DNA of 64,000 nucleotides, taken from contig JAQGGZ010000005.1 in assembly GCA_028289125.1 (NCBI GenBank), positions 1 through 64,000 on the forward strand, read 5' to 3'. Position 1 is the first letter of the stretch, and every line of letters begins with the position of its first letter. The notes below the pieces were generated by a model. That model made no database searches. It was not told where the DNA came from and saw only the letters and a program-made list of their open reading frames with translations. This DNA is from Candidatus Saccharimonadota bacterium. GTDB lineage: Bacteria; Patescibacteriota; Saccharimonadia; Saccharimonadales; UBA4665. Below are positions 45,489 through 55,334 of this stretch, piece by piece. Made by a program: the position numbers and the translations under genes.

Positions 45489-48251
45489 TTAGCCCTGGAC
45501 CCAGATGGTAATTGTGCTGTTCGTGAAACTGTTCAGTCCCTTGACGGTCAAGGTCAGCTCACCGCCTGGAGTACCTGCCGGAATCAGCACGGTGCTATCG
45601 TTGAAGCTGCCCTGTGCGGTAGCCTTGAAGCTGCCGATTACGCCGTTCTTGGTGCTGATCTGGACGGTGTCGTTCGACAAGAAGCCGGAACCGATGAAGT
45701 TCAGAGCTTGACCGGCCGGGACTGCGTAGGTGCCAAGTTCAACTGAGTTGTAGACCTGGGCGACGGTGTAGCCAGTCTTGGCGACCGCGCCGCTGTCTGC
45801 ACCGGTTGCGGTGATGGGGAGGTCGCCGGCTGCTGCGTATGGGACCGCGAAGCTCTTCGTGAAGGCGCCCTTGGCCGAAGCAGTGACGGTACTGAGGTCA
45901 GTCGTGCCGGCCGTTAGGGTAATCTGCTCATTCGGAGCGAAGCCTGATCCGCTGGCTGTGACGGCGCTGCCGCCGTTGCCGTAGTAGTTGTCTAGCTGGA
46001 CGCTAGCGTAGAACTGGGCCAGGCCGATATCGAGGCTGGTAGTGGCGTAGCTGGTCTCACCTTGAAAGATGAAGTTGGCCGATTTGCCGAACGGTAAGCT
46101 GAAGGCAGTGGCCGGGACGGCGATGTTACCCTTCTTGTCAGCGATGACTTCAGCGCCGCCCTCGTGGTTGAGGCTGACCATGACCGTTTCACCAGGCAGG
46201 AAGCCCATGCCGTCGAAACTGACGGGTGTGCCAGGGGTAGCGTACCACGTGCTCGGGCTGACCGAGACCGTAAATGGTGCCAATGTCAGGTTCATGCTGG
46301 CGACAGCTTTGCTGCTCTGTCCGGTAGCGGTGACCGGGATGCTGTTCTTGCCGGCTTCGGCAAACGGTAATTCGACAGTCACTGAGAAGGCGCCATCGAG
46401 GTCAGCGGTGACCGTACCGCCCTTTTTGCCGGTACCGACTTCGACATCTTCGCCAGGCGCGAAGCCGGCGCCGCTGAAGGTGACGGTGTCACCCGGCTTG
46501 GCGTAATAGCTGCTAGCGGTCAGGTATGGGTGATACTGGCCGACGGCGATTGATACGCTGGCGGTAGCGTCACTCGTTGTGCTGGTAGCGACGAAGCTGA
46601 CGGATTTAGCGGCTGGATCGGTGACGGCTACGTCGTGGAAGATAGCGGTACCATCTTCATCAGTCGTGGCGGTGGCGACAGTCGCAGCGCCGTTCTTCAG
46701 GTTCAGGGTGTCGCCAGGAGCGAAACCGGTAGCGGTGACGTCGAATTTGGCGAACGGTAAGGCGTACCAGGTGCCTGGGGTCAGCTGCGTGTTGAGCTGT
46801 CCGACACTGATTGTAGCCGTGGTTTCAGCTTGGCTGCTTTCACCGACGAGGCGGAAGCTCTGAGAGGTGCCGGCTGCGCTGAATGGGATGCTGTAAGCCG
46901 ACTGCTTCTTGAAACTACCGGTCATGTCGGCCTGGAAACTGCCGACTTTGGTAGTACCACTGAAGACATCGACCGTTTCGTTCGGCATGAAACCGAAACC
47001 GCTGAAGCTCAGGCTGCCGCCAGGCATCAGGTAGTAGTCGGAAGGACTGACTTGGGCGTTGTACGAGGCGACGCCGATAGTAACGGTACCACTTCCCTTG
47101 CTGGTAGCGCCGACGAGCGTGTAGGACTGGCTCTTGCCGGCGGCGGTAGCGGGAATGGTTACGGTACCGGCCATCGTCAGGTTGCCGTACTGATCAGCCG
47201 TAGTGGTGGCCAGCTTGGTCGTGCCCTGCATGACGTCGACGGTTTCGCCAGGGACGAAACCTGAGCCGTTGAAGCTGAGGTTGCCACCCGGCTGGACGTA
47301 ATAGTCAGATGGGCTGATGCTCGGGAAGTATTTGCCGACTGCGGTGCCGGTGCTGGTGCTGACACCACTGGTCAGGCCTGACAGGACGACTTTGAGATTG
47401 GAACCGGCCAGCGAAGCCGGAACTGTAAATGCACCGGCGTCAGTGAATGCACCTTCGGCGTCTGCCTTGAAGCTGCTGAGCAACGTACCACTGGAAGCGT
47501 CAGTAACGCTGATGGTCTCATTCGGTGCGAAGCCGGATCCATTGAAAGCCAGGTCGGTCAGCGGCATCAGGTAGTATGTGCTCGGTGAGGCGCTTGGAAA
47601 GAAACCGTTGACGTACTTATATGTCGTACCGGTAGCGCCGGATGACTGGCCGACGGCGACGACGGTGTACGAGGCAGCCGGAACGTTCGGGGTGGCGACG
47701 GTGATATCGCTGAAGGCGCCATTAACGTCAGCAGTCGTCATCGTAGTAGAACCGGCGAAGTTGATAGCGACGGCTTCATTGGCTGCGAAACCGGTCGCAC
47801 TGACCTTGATCGAGCCATAAGCGGTCGTGTTGCCTTCGTTGACGGTCACGGTAGGCGTGAACGGAACGACGTAGTAGCTGTTGCTGGCGTTCCAACCGGT
47901 AGATTTACCGGTGGCTTTGATAGCCAGGCCACCCTGCGGCAACTTGGCTGGTAAGGTGATCGATGTGCTGAACTCACCATTGTCAGATGAAGTAGCGGAA
48001 GCGGTCGCGACGGCGACGTTGCCGCTATCGGCTTCGACGTTGACCGTCTCGTCCTTACCGTAGTTACCGCCGGAGACGGTGATCGTTTGGTTCGGTTTGC
48101 CACTGAAGCTGCTCAGTGTGACGTAGACGTCGTTGCTGTCAGCCTTAGCCTGTAATGCGTAACCGGCTGGAGCGAGCAGAATGGTGAAAGCGGCAGCCGT
48201 GTAAGTTAGTTTTTGGGTGTTACTTTTCAGACTGGCGCGGCTTATTTTCAT
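45489..48251 (-). CDS. Large secreted protein of ten beta-sandwich repeats
   Basis: 920 aa. A signal peptide (1-37, ending ALQAKA-D) is followed by ten ~85-90-residue repeats that fill the protein. Each begins with a variant of 'YFPSxSPSDYYxxPGGxLxFxGxGFxPxExVxV', then a short strand pair and an alanine/valine-rich strand. Examples of the core are FNGSGFAPNETISV, FSGFGFMPNETVDV and FSGAGFAPGEDVEV. The repeats resemble IPT/TIG or bacterial Ig-like modules. No cysteines, LPxTG/LAxTG signal or C-terminal anchor are visible, so it may assemble as a surface layer or bind by its repeats. It has a good promoter and AAGGAG site. Confidence 0.85.
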   Translation of the reverse strand: MKISRASLKSNTQKLTYTAAAFTILLAPAGYALQAKADSNDVYVTLSSFSGKPNQTITVSGGNYGKDETVNVEADSGNVAVATASATSSDNGEFSTSITLPAKLPQGGLAIKATGKSTGWNASNSYYVVPFTPTVTVNEGNTTAYGSIKVSATGFAANEAVAINFAGSTTMTTADVNGAFSDITVATPNVPAASYTVVAVGQSSGATGTTYKYVNGFFPSASPSTYYLMPLTDLAFNGSGFAPNETISVTDASSGTLLSSFKADAEGAFTDAGAFTVPASLAGSNLKVVLSGLTSGVSTSTGTAVGKYFPSISPSDYYVQPGGNLSFNGSGFVPGETVDVMQGTTKLATTTADQYGNLTMAGTVTIPATAAGKSQSYTLVGATSKGSGTVTIGVASYNAQVSPSDYYLMPGGSLSFSGFGFMPNETVDVFSGTTKVGSFQADMTGSFKKQSAYSIPFSAAGTSQSFRLVGESSQAETTATISVGQLNTQLTPGTWYALPFAKFDVTATGFAPGDTLNLKNGAATVATATTDEDGTAIFHDVAVTDPAAKSVSFVATSTTSDATASVSIAVGQYHPYLTASSYYAKPGDTVTFSGAGFAPGEDVEVGTGKKGGTVTADLDGAFSVTVELPFAEAGKNSIPVTATGQSSKAVASMNLTLAPFTVSVSPSTWYATPGTPVSFDGMGFLPGETVMVSLNHEGGAEVIADKKGNIAVPATAFSLPFGKSANFIFQGETSYATTSLDIGLAQFYASVQLDNYYGNGGSAVTASGSGFAPNEQITLTAGTTDLSTVTASAKGAFTKSFAVPYAAAGDLPITATGADSGAVAKTGYTVAQVYNSVELGTYAVPAGQALNFIGSGFLSNDTVQISTKNGVIGSFKATAQGSFNDSTVLIPAGTPGGELTLTVKGLNSFTNSTITIWVQG

Positions 48252-50866: not shown

Positions 50867-51664
50867 ATGATTTACATAACCGCTATCCTCCTCGGTATCG
50901 TCGAAGGAATCACTGAGTTCCTGCCTATCAGCAGTACCGGCCATCTGATCGTTGCCGAAAAATTATTGGACTTTCATGATGTCCAGGATGTCTTCACGGT
51001 AGTCATCCAGCTCGGTGCCATTGCTGCTGTACTCTGGTTTTATCGACATGATTTGCTTGCAAAAGTCCGCGGTTTGTTTAAGAAAGACCCTGTCGCACTT
51101 CATTTCTGGAAGGTACTTGTCATCGCCACGATACCGGCTGGTATCTTCGGACTGATGCTAGATAAGAGCATGGAATCCATCTCAACTCTTACCGTCATCG
51201 GTTGGGCGCTGATCATCGGTGGCATTATCTTATGGTTGGTGGATCGACGGCCGCCCACACGCCGTTCGTTAAGCCCGCAAGTAGAAAAGACGACTATCAG
51301 GCAAGCCCTGCTCGTCGGTCTCGGCCAGTGTGTCGCCATCATACCTGGCGTGTCACGATCTGGCGCCACGATTGTCAGTGGTTTGTCGGTGGGACTTGAT
51401 CGGCCGACCGCAACGGCGTTTTCCTTCTACCTCAGCATCCCGGTGTTAGTACTGGCGAGTGCCTACAAATTAGTGAAGCATCCAGAAGCCGTCGGTCAGG
51501 TATCCGGGGGTGGTGGCGCGATACTCGTCGCCACGATCGTATCCTTCATGGTCGCGTTGGCCAGTATTACCTGGTTGTTACGTTACGTTTCGCGCCATAA
51601 CTTCCGGCCGTTCGCGTATTATCGGATAATCGCCGGACTCATCATACTGCTGTTCATAGCCTAG
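50867..51664 (+). CDS. uppP: Undecaprenyl-diphosphatase UppP (BacA)
   Basis: 265 aa with about eight helices. The two active-site regions are intact: GIVEGITEFLPISSTGHLIV near the N-terminus and IPGVSRSGATIVSGL in the middle. It dephosphorylates undecaprenyl diphosphate on the outer face to recycle the lipid carrier for wall and glycan synthesis, and is known to confer bacitracin resistance. This fits the LCP, GT-C and sortase genes in the window. Its last codons overlap the convergent oxidoreductase gene by 4 nt. Confidence 0.96.
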   Translation: MIYITAILLGIVEGITEFLPISSTGHLIVAEKLLDFHDVQDVFTVVIQLGAIAAVLWFYRHDLLAKVRGLFKKDPVALHFWKVLVIATIPAGIFGLMLDKSMESISTLTVIGWALIIGGIILWLVDRRPPTRRSLSPQVEKTTIRQALLVGLGQCVAIIPGVSRSGATIVSGLSVGLDRPTATAFSFYLSIPVLVLASAYKLVKHPEAVGQVSGGGGAILVATIVSFMVALASITWLLRYVSRHNFRPFAYYRIIAGLIILLFIA

Positions 51665-53112
51665 TAACCATCAAAGTAATCGGTCTTGATATGACGCTTC
51701 GGCACCCCGTAGCGGGTCAGTACCTGACGGGTGCCATCCACCATGAGGGGCGGTCCGGACACATAGTACGTGGTAGCTTGGTCGATAGACATGACATCGC
51801 CAAGGGCCTCGGGAGACTTGTCGATGAGGTAATGGATGTGATGGCCGGCTTTGCTGGCCTGGGCAAGGGTTTCTGCTTCGTAAATGTCCTGTTTTGACCG
51901 GACGAAATAATAGAGCGTCAGGCTCCTGTCATCAGGGTGTAGCAGCGCATGACGGATCATGCTGATGAACGGGGTGACACCGATGCCGCTGGCTATCAGT
52001 ACGACAGGTTCGGCCGCATTCTTCGGTAGAGTGAAATCGCCCGTTATGAACCCGGCTTGCAAGGTGTCACCGGGCTTCATCGATAGTAAGGATCGCTTGT
52101 ATGCACTACCGTTCGGGCTCACCCGTATCCCGAGGGTGACGCAGTCGTCACCCGGTGCGGAGGCTATGCTGAACATGCGTCGGTTGCCTCGCCCGTCAAG
52201 CCGCTTGACTGGCACCGTCCAGTGCATGTATTGTCCTGGCGTGAAACTTAGTGGCTGGCTAGGAGAAAACTGAAAGCGGTACAGGCCGTCCGACTGCCTA
52301 TGGATGTCACGTAACGTCATGGTAAAGCCTTGGCGTTTATTAAGGGCGTACGCAAACAAGTTCGCGAACAACAGTGCCAGGCTCGGGGTGACGAACTGTC
52401 CGAACAGTGTGAGTTGGCCGGTCAGTAAGACACCGACGAGCGCGCCGTATAAGATGTGCCAACGTTTGCTGCCTGGGAGGGTGGCGGGCTCGGTCAGCAT
52501 TATTCCGCCAAGAAACAGAAACGGCGAAGCCAGGATTAGGTCGTTGAACGCCACGGCTGGTGACACATCATTCGAGACGGCTACGAAGACAGCTGTGGTA
52601 ACCGCCGCCACGACGTACCCTGCCGCCAGGCGGTAGAGCCGTAACCGCATGACGACCAACCCGGCAAGCACAGCTACAAGCAGCGCCAGACTTGGCGTGC
52701 CGACCCACCATGTCGCCGCGCTTAGACCGGTCAGCGCTATCGCTGCGGTCGCGAGGGCCGCCGGATTGAAAATATGACGCCCGCGGTAAGCGATGATATA
52801 TTTGCTGGCCATCGCGATGATTCCGACGATGCCGGCGGCAATAATATGACTGACGGATCGGGCCGGTGCCAGAATCAGATAAAGGATCAGTGCGCTGATC
52901 AGCCATGACTCATGTGACGGCGTGACCCGCCATACTTTTGCCATCAGGCGGTTTGCCACGTAGCAAGTGACGAGGAGCACGACTAAAGATATACATAGCT
53001 GACTGAAAGGTATGGTGAGTAGGCCCAGTGCACTGAACAGCAGGCTGACGGCAGCGATGATGCCCAGCCCGTATACGACAAGGCGGTATATGGTGATGCG
53101 GTATAAGTTCAT
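51661..53112 (-). CDS. RnfD/NqrB-like membrane domain fused to an FNR-type reductase
   Basis: 483 aa. The N-terminal half has about 8-9 helices with the NQR2/RnfD pattern (IAYRGRHIFNPAALATAAIAL, LILASPFLFLGGIMLTEPAT). The C-terminal ~225 residues are a ferredoxin-NADP reductase-like module: FAD site RRMFSIASAP, NAD(P)-binding IASGIGVTPFISMIRH and YYVSGPPLMVDGTRQVL, ending in a conserved aromatic tail. No 2Fe-2S domain is present. It should move electrons from cytosolic NAD(P)H through the membrane to an extracytoplasmic flavoprotein. The operon order (FMN-binding protein, ApbE, this gene) supports that. Its start overlaps the apbE stop by 4 nt. Confidence 0.92.
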   Translation of the reverse strand: MNLYRITIYRLVVYGLGIIAAVSLLFSALGLLTIPFSQLCISLVVLLVTCYVANRLMAKVWRVTPSHESWLISALILYLILAPARSVSHIIAAGIVGIIAMASKYIIAYRGRHIFNPAALATAAIALTGLSAATWWVGTPSLALLVAVLAGLVVMRLRLYRLAAGYVVAAVTTAVFVAVSNDVSPAVAFNDLILASPFLFLGGIMLTEPATLPGSKRWHILYGALVGVLLTGQLTLFGQFVTPSLALLFANLFAYALNKRQGFTMTLRDIHRQSDGLYRFQFSPSQPLSFTPGQYMHWTVPVKRLDGRGNRRMFSIASAPGDDCVTLGIRVSPNGSAYKRSLLSMKPGDTLQAGFITGDFTLPKNAAEPVVLIASGIGVTPFISMIRHALLHPDDRSLTLYYFVRSKQDIYEAETLAQASKAGHHIHYLIDKSPEALGDVMSIDQATTYYVSGPPLMVDGTRQVLTRYGVPKRHIKTDYFDGY

Positions 53113-54017
53113 GAATCAGCTCCGAAGAACTGTGCCGGAAAGCCCGGCGATGAGACCAGTGAGTAGTCTTCGTGCATTATCGCGTACTCGAACTCAAAGT
53201 AGCGTCTCAAACTGTCAGCCGGCGCGAAATACAATGCCGTCGCTAGACCATCAGCGACCAACGCGGTCGGGGCTGTCACCCATAATGCTTTGATGTGTTT
53301 CGGCGAAGTCAGGCTGTGCGGATCGATGACATGATGATAGGTCGCCCACCGCCGACGGTTACCCGCTGAACCGCAGATACTCCCTTGGGTTATCTGTGCT
53401 ACTCCGATGACCTGGTTAAGATTATCGGGGTGTTCAAGCCCGACATTAAGAGTCTGGCCGACCGTTACGATATCACCGCCGGCATCGATGCTGTAGTGTC
53501 GGACATCGGCCTGTACCATGATTTGGGCGACCAGGTCGATGAGGTAACCCTTCCCGGCTGCACCGAAATCAAGCAGGACCGGTCGCTTAGCTGTGAGAGT
53601 GGCACCATCGTATGTCATGACCTCCTGCCATGCCGGTACGGACCGTATCGGCATGGGCTGGAGCGAATAACTTGCGTCATAGCCGGCGTCGGATAAGGCC
53701 TGGCCTATCAGCGGCGTCATGGCACCATCCGTCAGATCATACAGCTGTTGGTACAGGTTGAACATCGGAGCGGCGTCATCCGGCAAGCGGTAGTTTCCGG
53801 CCTCTCGGGCGATCTGTGCCACGACAGAATCAGCCCTGAACCGCGAATAGACGTGGTCGAAGGCCGCGATGCGCTGCTGAATGGATTTCTGTAAGTCGCC
53901 TAAACGGTCATAGGCCTCGTAGACTTCAATCGTCCACGATGTCCCGATGGCTTCGAACTTCAATGAGAACGGCTGGCTAAGCCTGAGCCTGGGACTTGAT
54001 GGCATCGACGGCCTCAT
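53109..54017 (-). CDS. apbE: FAD:protein FMN transferase
   Basis: 302 aa at most. Family features: GTSWTIEVYEAYD, FDHVYSRFRADSVVAQI, DFGAAGKGYLIDLVAQIM, IDAGGDIVTVG, WATYHHVIDPHS and the metal-binding VTAPTALVADGLATALYF. It transfers FMN from FAD to a Ser/Thr of partner proteins outside the membrane. A clear lipoprotein or signal sequence is missing. The frame overlaps the upstream FMN-binding gene by 41 nt; ATG 54005 or a TTG at 53963 (LKFEAIGTSW) could be the real start, which would also shorten the overlap. Confidence 0.92.
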   Translation of the reverse strand: MRPSMPSSPRLRLSQPFSLKFEAIGTSWTIEVYEAYDRLGDLQKSIQQRIAAFDHVYSRFRADSVVAQIAREAGNYRLPDDAAPMFNLYQQLYDLTDGAMTPLIGQALSDAGYDASYSLQPMPIRSVPAWQEVMTYDGATLTAKRPVLLDFGAAGKGYLIDLVAQIMVQADVRHYSIDAGGDIVTVGQTLNVGLEHPDNLNQVIGVAQITQGSICGSAGNRRRWATYHHVIDPHSLTSPKHIKALWVTAPTALVADGLATALYFAPADSLRRYFEFEYAIMHEDYSLVSSPGFPAQFFGADS

Positions 54018-54459
54018 TAAAGCCGCGTGGTGTCAGGGAGGAACCTGAAATACGGGAAAGTGTGATGTCGTTGATGTCCTTGCCGACGACGAACGGACTA
54101 TAGTTGGCCTTGAACTGGGCCTGGTACTCGGCGGCTTCCTGGCTAGTCTGGCTAGTCGTGACATCGCTGGTCGTGACGACATTGTTTGCAACCGTGAGTT
54201 TCACAGTGATACTTTCCGTTCCGCCCGGGGTTTGATAATTGCCGGTAGCGCTGTACGTACCGTCCTTATATTCTACGGTTGATCCCGAAGCCTGGCTTTC
54301 TGTGGTCGTGCTGGTTTGGGCCGGGTTCTCGGTAACCGTCCCCACCTCATCCTTATTCTTAGCGTAAAGAGCGATTGCCGTCGCGATCACTATCAGCGCC
54401 AGTATGCCGACGATTACCATGGTTTTTTGACGCGAATTGGATGTTGATTCGGGCGGCAT
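53977..54459 (-). CDS. FMN-binding domain protein, likely ApbE substrate
   Basis: 160 aa from MPPESTSNSRQ, with AAAGGAG 5 nt upstream. One helix (about 13-34) anchors an extracellular part: a Thr/Ser-rich linker, then an FMN_bind-like domain (YKDGTYSATGNYQTPGG ... ISGSSLTPRGFNEAVDAIKSQA). The S-G-S-S-L-T segment corresponds to the S-G-A-T-x-T flavinylation motif that ApbE modifies on the last Thr. As the first gene of a three-gene operon with apbE and the RnfD/NqrB-FNR fusion, it is the likely terminal electron carrier outside the cell. Confidence 0.85.
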   Translation of the reverse strand: MPPESTSNSRQKTMVIVGILALIVIATAIALYAKNKDEVGTVTENPAQTSTTTESQASGSTVEYKDGTYSATGNYQTPGGTESITVKLTVANNVVTTSDVTTSQTSQEAAEYQAQFKANYSPFVVGKDINDITLSRISGSSLTPRGFNEAVDAIKSQAQA

Positions 54460-54512
54460 ACGGGCTCCTTTATATACTAAATATAGTATCACGCCCGCAG
54501 CTTATGAATGGC

Positions 54513-55334
54513 TTAAAAACCGATAGTTACTGAAGGCGTAGTCACTGAGCTAACGGCCGGAACGGTGACGGTTGCTGGCGGAACACTCACGACGGGCGCT
54601 GTCTGGCTGGGAGGAGTGACAACTGGCTCAGCCGGTGTTGTGACAGGTGTAGGATCTACGGCAGGTGTCTGATCAGTTGGTATTATTGCGGGTGTTGACA
54701 CCGGTGAAGTTGCAGGGACAGAGGGGACTGTCGCGGGAGCGGGCGTCGGAACGGTCACTGTCGTTTCGCTGCCACCACCCCTTCCGCCGACAGGGGCGGC
54801 AGCTGGTAAGGGATCCGTTACGGCACCTTGCTGCGGGACCGGGAGCTTGGTGGTATCAATCTGTGTTTCGACCGCAGGGCGCAAGATAGTTACGCGGCTC
54901 CCTACCTGCGCCGGCAGAGTGCGGCCGGACAGTATGGCAATCGCCAGCCCGGATGATTGAGTTTTAATCGGTGCTACCGGCTCGATATTCGTGCCTGGAT
55001 GCGAAGCCGCTAAGGCGACCAGGGCTGCCAAGGCAGCAATCAGTGGCAAGACCTGATAATTCCGCGGAGCTCGAATTCCGCGTGCCAAGGTATAAACCTT
55101 AGTGGAACGGGGTCTCGTCGCATCATGCCAGATCGCTGCCATGGCAGTACCGAGAATGACCGTTCGTTTTTTAGTGAAGCTAATCGCATCGGAAATATGA
55201 TGTCGCTCGGGTGCGGGCCTTTCGAGGCGGCGCATGCTGGTGTTTTCGGGGTTAAGGCGCTTTTTGACTTCTTCTTGGAAGAAAATTCCGTCGAGATGAG
55301 TCCCATTACTGCGGCCTGTGAGGTAGCTGTGCAT
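54513..55334 (-). CDS. One-pass protein with long Pro/Thr/Val-rich exported tail
   Basis: 273 aa. A charged cytoplasmic N-terminus of ~90 residues precedes one helix (about 93-112: QVLPLIAALAALVALAAS). The outside part has ~55 mixed residues (SGLAIAILSGRTLPAQVG), a GGRGGGSE patch and ~95 residues of Pro, Thr and Val repeats (TPVTTPAEPVVTPPSQT-like). No family was recognised. It could be a wall-spanning stalk. The ATG at 55334 is supported by a TTGACT-N17-TATGGT promoter whose -10 ends 6 nt upstream. Confidence 0.7.
   Translation of the reverse strand: MHSYLTGRSNGTHLDGIFFQEEVKKRLNPENTSMRRLERPAPERHHISDAISFTKKRTVILGTAMAAIWHDATRPRSTKVYTLARGIRAPRNYQVLPLIAALAALVALAASHPGTNIEPVAPIKTQSSGLAIAILSGRTLPAQVGSRVTILRPAVETQIDTTKLPVPQQGAVTDPLPAAAPVGGRGGGSETTVTVPTPAPATVPSVPATSPVSTPAIIPTDQTPAVDPTPVTTPAEPVVTPPSQTAPVVSVPPATVTVPAVSSVTTPSVTIGF

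Follow-up and report, generated by a model that had tools for sequence, protein, structure and literature searches.

A predicted NQR/RNF-like flavin electron exporter encoded by three overlapping genes in a Saccharimonadota genome

Does a member of the Saccharimonadota carry electrons from cytosolic NAD(P)H to a flavin outside its membrane, and if so, to which acceptor? The question is raised by a stretch of 64,000 nucleotides from a Candidatus Saccharimonadota bacterium (contig JAQGGZ010000005.1, positions 1–64,000; the whole stretch is hereafter the window), where three open reading frames overlap at positions 51661–54459 of the minus strand. An earlier note on this DNA had described them as overlapping genes for a flavin mononucleotide (FMN)-binding protein, ApbE, and a fusion of an RnfD/NqrB-like membrane domain with an FNR reductase, and all three frames are found there. 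To judge by its sequences, the module is probably of the published NQR/RNF-like type and would act as a unidirectional NAD(P)H:extracytoplasmic-flavoprotein oxidoreductase. NAD(P)H would reduce the flavin adenine dinucleotide (FAD) of the cytosolic FNR domain; the electrons would traverse the RnfD/NqrB-like domain, probably on a non-covalently bound flavin, reach the FMN attached by ApbE (at the predicted acceptor Ser141) to a membrane-tethered FMN_bind domain outside, and pass from there to an extracellular acceptor. The computed results are the homology of the three parts, the conservation of the operon, the FNR and ApbE motifs, a tethered FMN domain with a conserved site, and the loss of the flavin loop known from RnfD; we infer the flavin content, the sidedness, the acceptor, and the direction in which electrons flow.

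The fusion (51661–53112, minus strand; 483 amino acids, aa) combines the membrane domain (residues ~1–260, ~10 helices) with a C-terminal FNR part that binds FAD and NAD(P) (residues ~261–483). Both halves match Pfam over the cut-off, the N-terminal one as NQR2_RnfD_RnfE (PF03116, E=1e-7) and the C-terminal one as NAD_binding_1 (PF00175, E=4e-8). NCBIfam and PDB matches of the C-terminal half are FNR-type reductases (FNR fold, E to 5e-15), and the FNR motifs RRxF(S/T), AGGIG(I/V)TP, and Y-x-SGP, kept in 43 homologues, are intact in the fusion. A membrane-domain profile from 12 homologues matches RnfD of Azotobacter (8ahx_D) at E=3.7e-6, and the domain aligns with RsxD of Escherichia coli MG1655 from residue 65 onward. 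Some 65 RsxD residues (loop 153–217, from the NP motif to the next helix, including the flavinylated Thr of DGISQATPLD) are unmatched in the fusion. Since this covalent-FMN loop is missing, a non-covalent flavin is proposed for the membrane step; the NQR/RNF-like family has been described as lacking the NqrB/RnfD flavinylation Thr and probably binding its flavin non-covalently (Huang 2024, PMC11334425). Loss of the flavin-binding residues of RnfD/NqrB had been named beforehand as a finding that would count against the proposed path, and it holds in part, the covalent-FMN loop being gone from the membrane domain. As a covalent flavin site of the family, T134 (LSAATWW), the Thr closest to the position of the lost loop, is rejected, its column holding T in 13, S in 19, G in 5, and other residues in the remainder of 43 sequences, next to an invariant WW. 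At two other loci (L020, L022), an FMN partner and ApbE are paired with another membrane reductase (~425 aa, probably ferric-reductase-like), with no RnfD-FNR fusion.

The presumed carrier (53977–54459, minus strand; 160 aa) has a transmembrane helix at residues ~13–34, a Ser/Thr-rich linker at ~35–62, and an FMN_bind-like domain at 63–160. The Pfam scan yields no match of this protein to FMN_bind (PF04205), nor does a genome-wide search for that domain find one in the genome. Its fusion-associated homologue at locus L019 does match PF04205 over the C-terminal domain (29.2 bits vs. a cut-off of 22), and a profile built from the divergent family can be aligned to one of the canonical FMN_bind proteins that accompany this fusion (hhalign, E=3e-13), with SGSSLT falling on SGATxT / SGA[ST]xT. 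Through this homologue and the profile comparison we assign the protein to the FMN_bind type on sequence grounds. The Ser-type family alone retrieves no FMN_bind chain from the PDB (hmmsearch), and close homologues are too divergent for a direct match; a match of the FMN-protein profile to 8p2a is discounted, as it depended on adding two canonical members. In the AlphaFold model, helix 13–34 is followed by a beta-beta-beta-alpha..alpha domain (three strands, two helices) with a predicted local distance difference test (pLDDT) score of ~85–96.

The predicted attachment motif SRISGSSLT (54031–54057, minus strand; residues 135–143) is located by alignment columns and a motif survey. Columns G139, S141, and T143 are invariant or nearly so among homologues, hence SGSSLT is no chance string. 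With the position of the acceptor within the flavinylation motif taken from PMC12052999, the predicted acceptor is Ser141 (Ser, not Thr), followed by the invariant Thr143 at +2; a check for [ST]GA[ST]-type motifs reads SGSS, with Ser at the acceptor position and Asp absent at the motif start. The ApbE-type motif that the earlier note proposed is therefore a degenerate one, and Pfam misses the domain in this protein although it recognizes it in a homologue. A hydrophobic N-terminal segment (>1.6) is present in 57 of 66 FMN partners, and those inspected among the remainder still have a short hydrophobic N-terminus.

ApbE, the FAD:protein FMN transferase (53109–54017, minus strand; 302 aa), matches PF02424 (E=3e-42) and has the PDB relatives 1vrm and 3pnd (E=6e-12). 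Residues D150, K156, G157, D182, H229, D256, and T260 are invariant in 13 homologues; they correspond to the metal-binding (Mg2+) and catalytic positions of known ApbEs. As to its substrate, no FAD synthetase domain (PF06574) is found in the window genome, and among 99 genomes of the class none has a match over the cut-off, with only eight weak partial ones; FAD may come from an external source or from a divergent enzyme.

The gene set is conserved. Among the 245 class genomes, 60 carry the full-length fusion (65 loci listed), and the co-occurrence survey suggested by the earlier note finds ApbE in 58 of these 60 genomes and within 1.5 kb of the fusion at 57/65 loci; dozens of genomes, some of them from outside the class, have the three genes in this order. 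In a sample of the phylum, 61 of 333 genomes have the membrane domain: in 51 of these the match is strong and spans the full domain, almost always in an open frame as long as the fusion; the remaining 10 have short RnfD-like proteins. The latter (~254–295 aa; G430, G511, G315, G325, G554, G338, G270, G448, G298, and G290) stand alone, without an FNR part. Known relatives include Doudnabacteria (L013) and Giovannonibacteria (L010). At L010 (4980–6924), neither ApbE nor an FMN partner accompanies the fusion, and the gene after it encodes a small anchored protein with a cupredoxin-looking sequence; a cupredoxin as the regular substitute for the FMN protein is rejected, as it fails at the other ApbE-less loci L062 and L063. 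At L058 and L059 (genus g47), the FMN partner, the fusion, and an Nramp metal transporter are co-directional, and ApbE is encoded elsewhere in the genome.

Cluster ApbEs form two deeply separate clades, a long ApbE with a Ser acceptor (31/31) and a short ApbE with a Thr acceptor (25/27), and both cluster kinds reside together in some genomes, e.g., G077 (L068, L069). The acceptor residue changes only twice on the tree, which argues for an old split rather than repeated co-evolution; as the tree has just 2 and 1 changes behind the link between acceptor residue and ApbE length, independent events are very few, and the raw counts are no independent evidence of co-evolution. We suggest, with considerable doubt, that Patescibacteria have two anciently separate exporters, one with a short ApbE and mostly Thr, the other with a long ApbE and Ser (SGSS/AGSS) and mostly invisible to Pfam, both flavinylated in the cytosol by a signal-less ApbE before membrane insertion, unlike the periplasmic maturation of RNF and NQR.

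Several results weigh against an exporter of this kind. The motif survey finds SRISGSSLT degenerate, with neither the Asp nor the Ala that is usual in D-x-x-[ST]-G-A-[ST]; Foldseek of the FMN model against the PDB is weak, with IscU folds first and FMN_bind/RnfG structures at E~0.1; and, as regards a metal acceptor, metal-linked neighbours are seen at only ~8/70 loci (a raw count without a background rate), and none adjoins the window's operon. Neither an export signal nor a hydrophobic N-terminus is found in the window ApbE or in 62 of the 63 cluster ApbEs, the single exception having a hydrophobic segment near an N-terminus whose start is probably over-extended. According to a published review, ApbE export is typical and cytosolic ApbEs, e.g., in Klebsiella, are exceptional, and a transferase that seems, from its sequence, to lack a signal sits badly with an extracytoplasmic substrate. 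If ApbE acts where it is made, the FMN domain might face the cytosol, and the module would be an intracellular membrane flavoprotein reductase; the missing signals and the Klebsiella precedent fit this arrangement, but the charge bias around the transmembrane helix favours N-in/C-out (31 homologues, vs. 11 opposite and 24 tied), and the FMN protein has a Ser/Thr-rich linker. The related NqrC and RnfG, moreover, are extracytoplasmic subunits, and we regard a cytosolic domain as improbable. Still less credible, in our estimate, is that the 160-aa protein is not flavinylated at all and that ApbE serves another target or is an FAD hydrolase: the irregular motif and the failure of Pfam to recognize the domain would agree with this, yet the protein is the sole candidate beside the genome's sole ApbE match, and in both ApbE clades the site is conserved along with the gene pair. 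For the exporter, the path from cytosolic NAD(P)H to an exported flavin carrier that had been proposed matches the NQR/RNF-like system in its three-part order; the word "complete", which had been applied to it, is not borne out, with no export signal in ApbE.

As to the acceptor, the premise that such bacteria lack a full respiratory chain fails for the window genome, which encodes, on the same contig as the operon (G000 contig C11, 104075–111745; L025 75–7745), an Ndh-2-like enzyme, a GlcD-like FAD dehydrogenase, and cytochrome bo3 (CyoABCD) with the heme o synthase CyoE. A two-component system adjoins this cyo stretch. Within the class, a terminal oxidase is present in 52/60 genomes with the fusion vs. 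40/185 without; by genus, in 35/41 vs. 23/69, and in 22/28 vs. 16/62 when the window's family is left out, these tests ignoring kinship (no species tree). The test is uninformative within that family, almost all of whose members have the oxidase. The trend is seen again outside the class, where the fusion is carried by 7 of the 10 genomes that have COX1 (P~6e-5, assuming 290–305 genomes there). The module could feed an aerobic chain and replace complex I, with the flavoprotein relaying NAD(P)H electrons to a quinone or directly to cytochrome bo3; this co-occurrence, the oxidase and dehydrogenase genes on the operon's own contig, and cyo genes a few genes away from the cluster at three loci (L019, L064, L065) speak for it. 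However, heme-copper oxidases are absent from 35 of the 42 genomes that carry the fusion outside the class and from 10 of the 60 that carry it inside, 8 of the 60 lacking a bd oxidase as well; the window genome already has an Ndh-2-like enzyme, and the three-gene set has no NqrD/NqrE-like subunits. Because most carriers outside the class lack a heme-copper oxidase, the oxidase is a companion rather than a requirement, and feeding of bo3 is marked down to unlikely. The same carriers would fit a general electron sink that passes surplus NADH to host-derived or environmental oxidants and balances fermentation, with no dedicated acceptor, and so would the lack of any dedicated reductase that recurs consistently around the cluster at 70 distinct loci; against this, the cluster within the class accompanies oxidase-bearing genomes, which have less need of a sink, and we hold this option to be doubtful, though not negligible.

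The most common neighbours at these 70 loci are a two-component system (13–14, mostly on the same strand directly upstream), an MFS transporter (10), and a DedA-like protein (6), the latter two named by sequence inspection only. Nramp (4), ZIP (3), FUR (3), DsbA-like (4), Ndh-2-like (3), and cyo (3) genes recur as well, and VIT1 lies near one locus (L016); VIT1 has also been found in six published NQR/RNF-like clusters (Meheust et al. 2021, PMC8238504). From such neighbours a metal acceptor is conceivable. Over a quinone/bo3 chain, we tentatively favour, as a weakly held preference, Fe(III), another metal, or some other oxidant at the surface as the acceptor of the exporter, in lineages living with oxygen.

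In the window, ApbE overlaps the fusion by 4 nt and the FMN protein by 41 nt. A possible operon promoter and ribosome-binding site lie at 54464–54508 on the minus strand: TTCATA-17-TATATT has 9/12 matches in a consensus scan, a count that alone says nothing on function, and AGGAG, read from the sequence, stands 5 nt upstream of the ATG of the FMN protein at 54459. Because AGGAG precedes this ATG, the 160-aa start is favoured over a GTG start giving 171 aa. Directly upstream, at 54513–55334 (minus strand), a 273-aa Pro/Thr/Val-rich protein with a likely membrane segment is encoded; it has no Pfam or NCBIfam match and no counterpart adjoining other fusion loci. Farther away, at 45489–48251 (minus strand), lies a gene for a secreted repeat protein of 920 aa that contains several Ig-like domains of the PGS type (NF058592, E=6e-19).

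Among known systems, FmnB/PplA of Listeria, which serves Gram-positive extracellular electron transfer, shares with the window set an ApbE-type transferase and an FMN-carrying surface protein; the window set differs in having no Ndh2/EetA/B/DMK genes and in using a fused RnfD-FNR protein as the membrane carrier. RNF and Na+-NQR share the RnfD/NqrB-like membrane fold, an RnfG/NqrC-type FMN_bind partner, and ApbE maturation, whereas the window fusion is without the covalent-FMN loop of RnfD. None of RnfA/E, RnfB, RnfC, NqrA, and NqrD/E is seen in the three-gene set or its nearest neighbours, no whole-genome search for them having been made; with a single arm in the window set, no ion pump is expected. 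In 'Ca. Teamsevenus rhizospherense', a soil member of the Saccharibacteria, one protein has NqrB-like and NqrF-like domains, for which an iron–sulfur (FeS) domain and an ion-gradient role are mentioned, and the genome also encodes Ndh and a bo3 oxidase (Starr et al. 2018, PMC6031116); in the window fusion, by contrast, no FeS motif is seen.

The closest likeness is to the NQR/RNF-like flavinylation clusters reported in Actinobacteria and the candidate phyla radiation (CPR) (Meheust et al. 2021, PMC8238504), for which structural models exist (PMC11334425). Both have ApbE, an FMN_bind partner, and a protein that joins an NqrB/RnfD-like domain without the NqrB/RnfD flavinylation Thr to an NAD-binding domain of the FNR/NqrF type, and encoding of the fusion in one cluster with the other two places the window operon in that group. 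It differs in an FMN domain below Pfam detection, a predicted Ser acceptor (SGSS), and an ApbE with no export signal. The system as such is not new, as it was reported in the CPR in 2021, and what is added here is modest: the split into two subtypes, an ApbE without a signal, and the association with oxidases. The analysis adds a well-conserved case to a described family that is common in ultrasmall bacteria, as its presence in about a quarter of the class genomes indicates, and makes two questions testable, namely, to which surface acceptor epibiont-type cells would pass electrons and at which place a signal-less transferase would flavinylate an exported protein. The operon is an ordinary, well-preserved member of the published family of predicted two-subunit flavin electron exporters.

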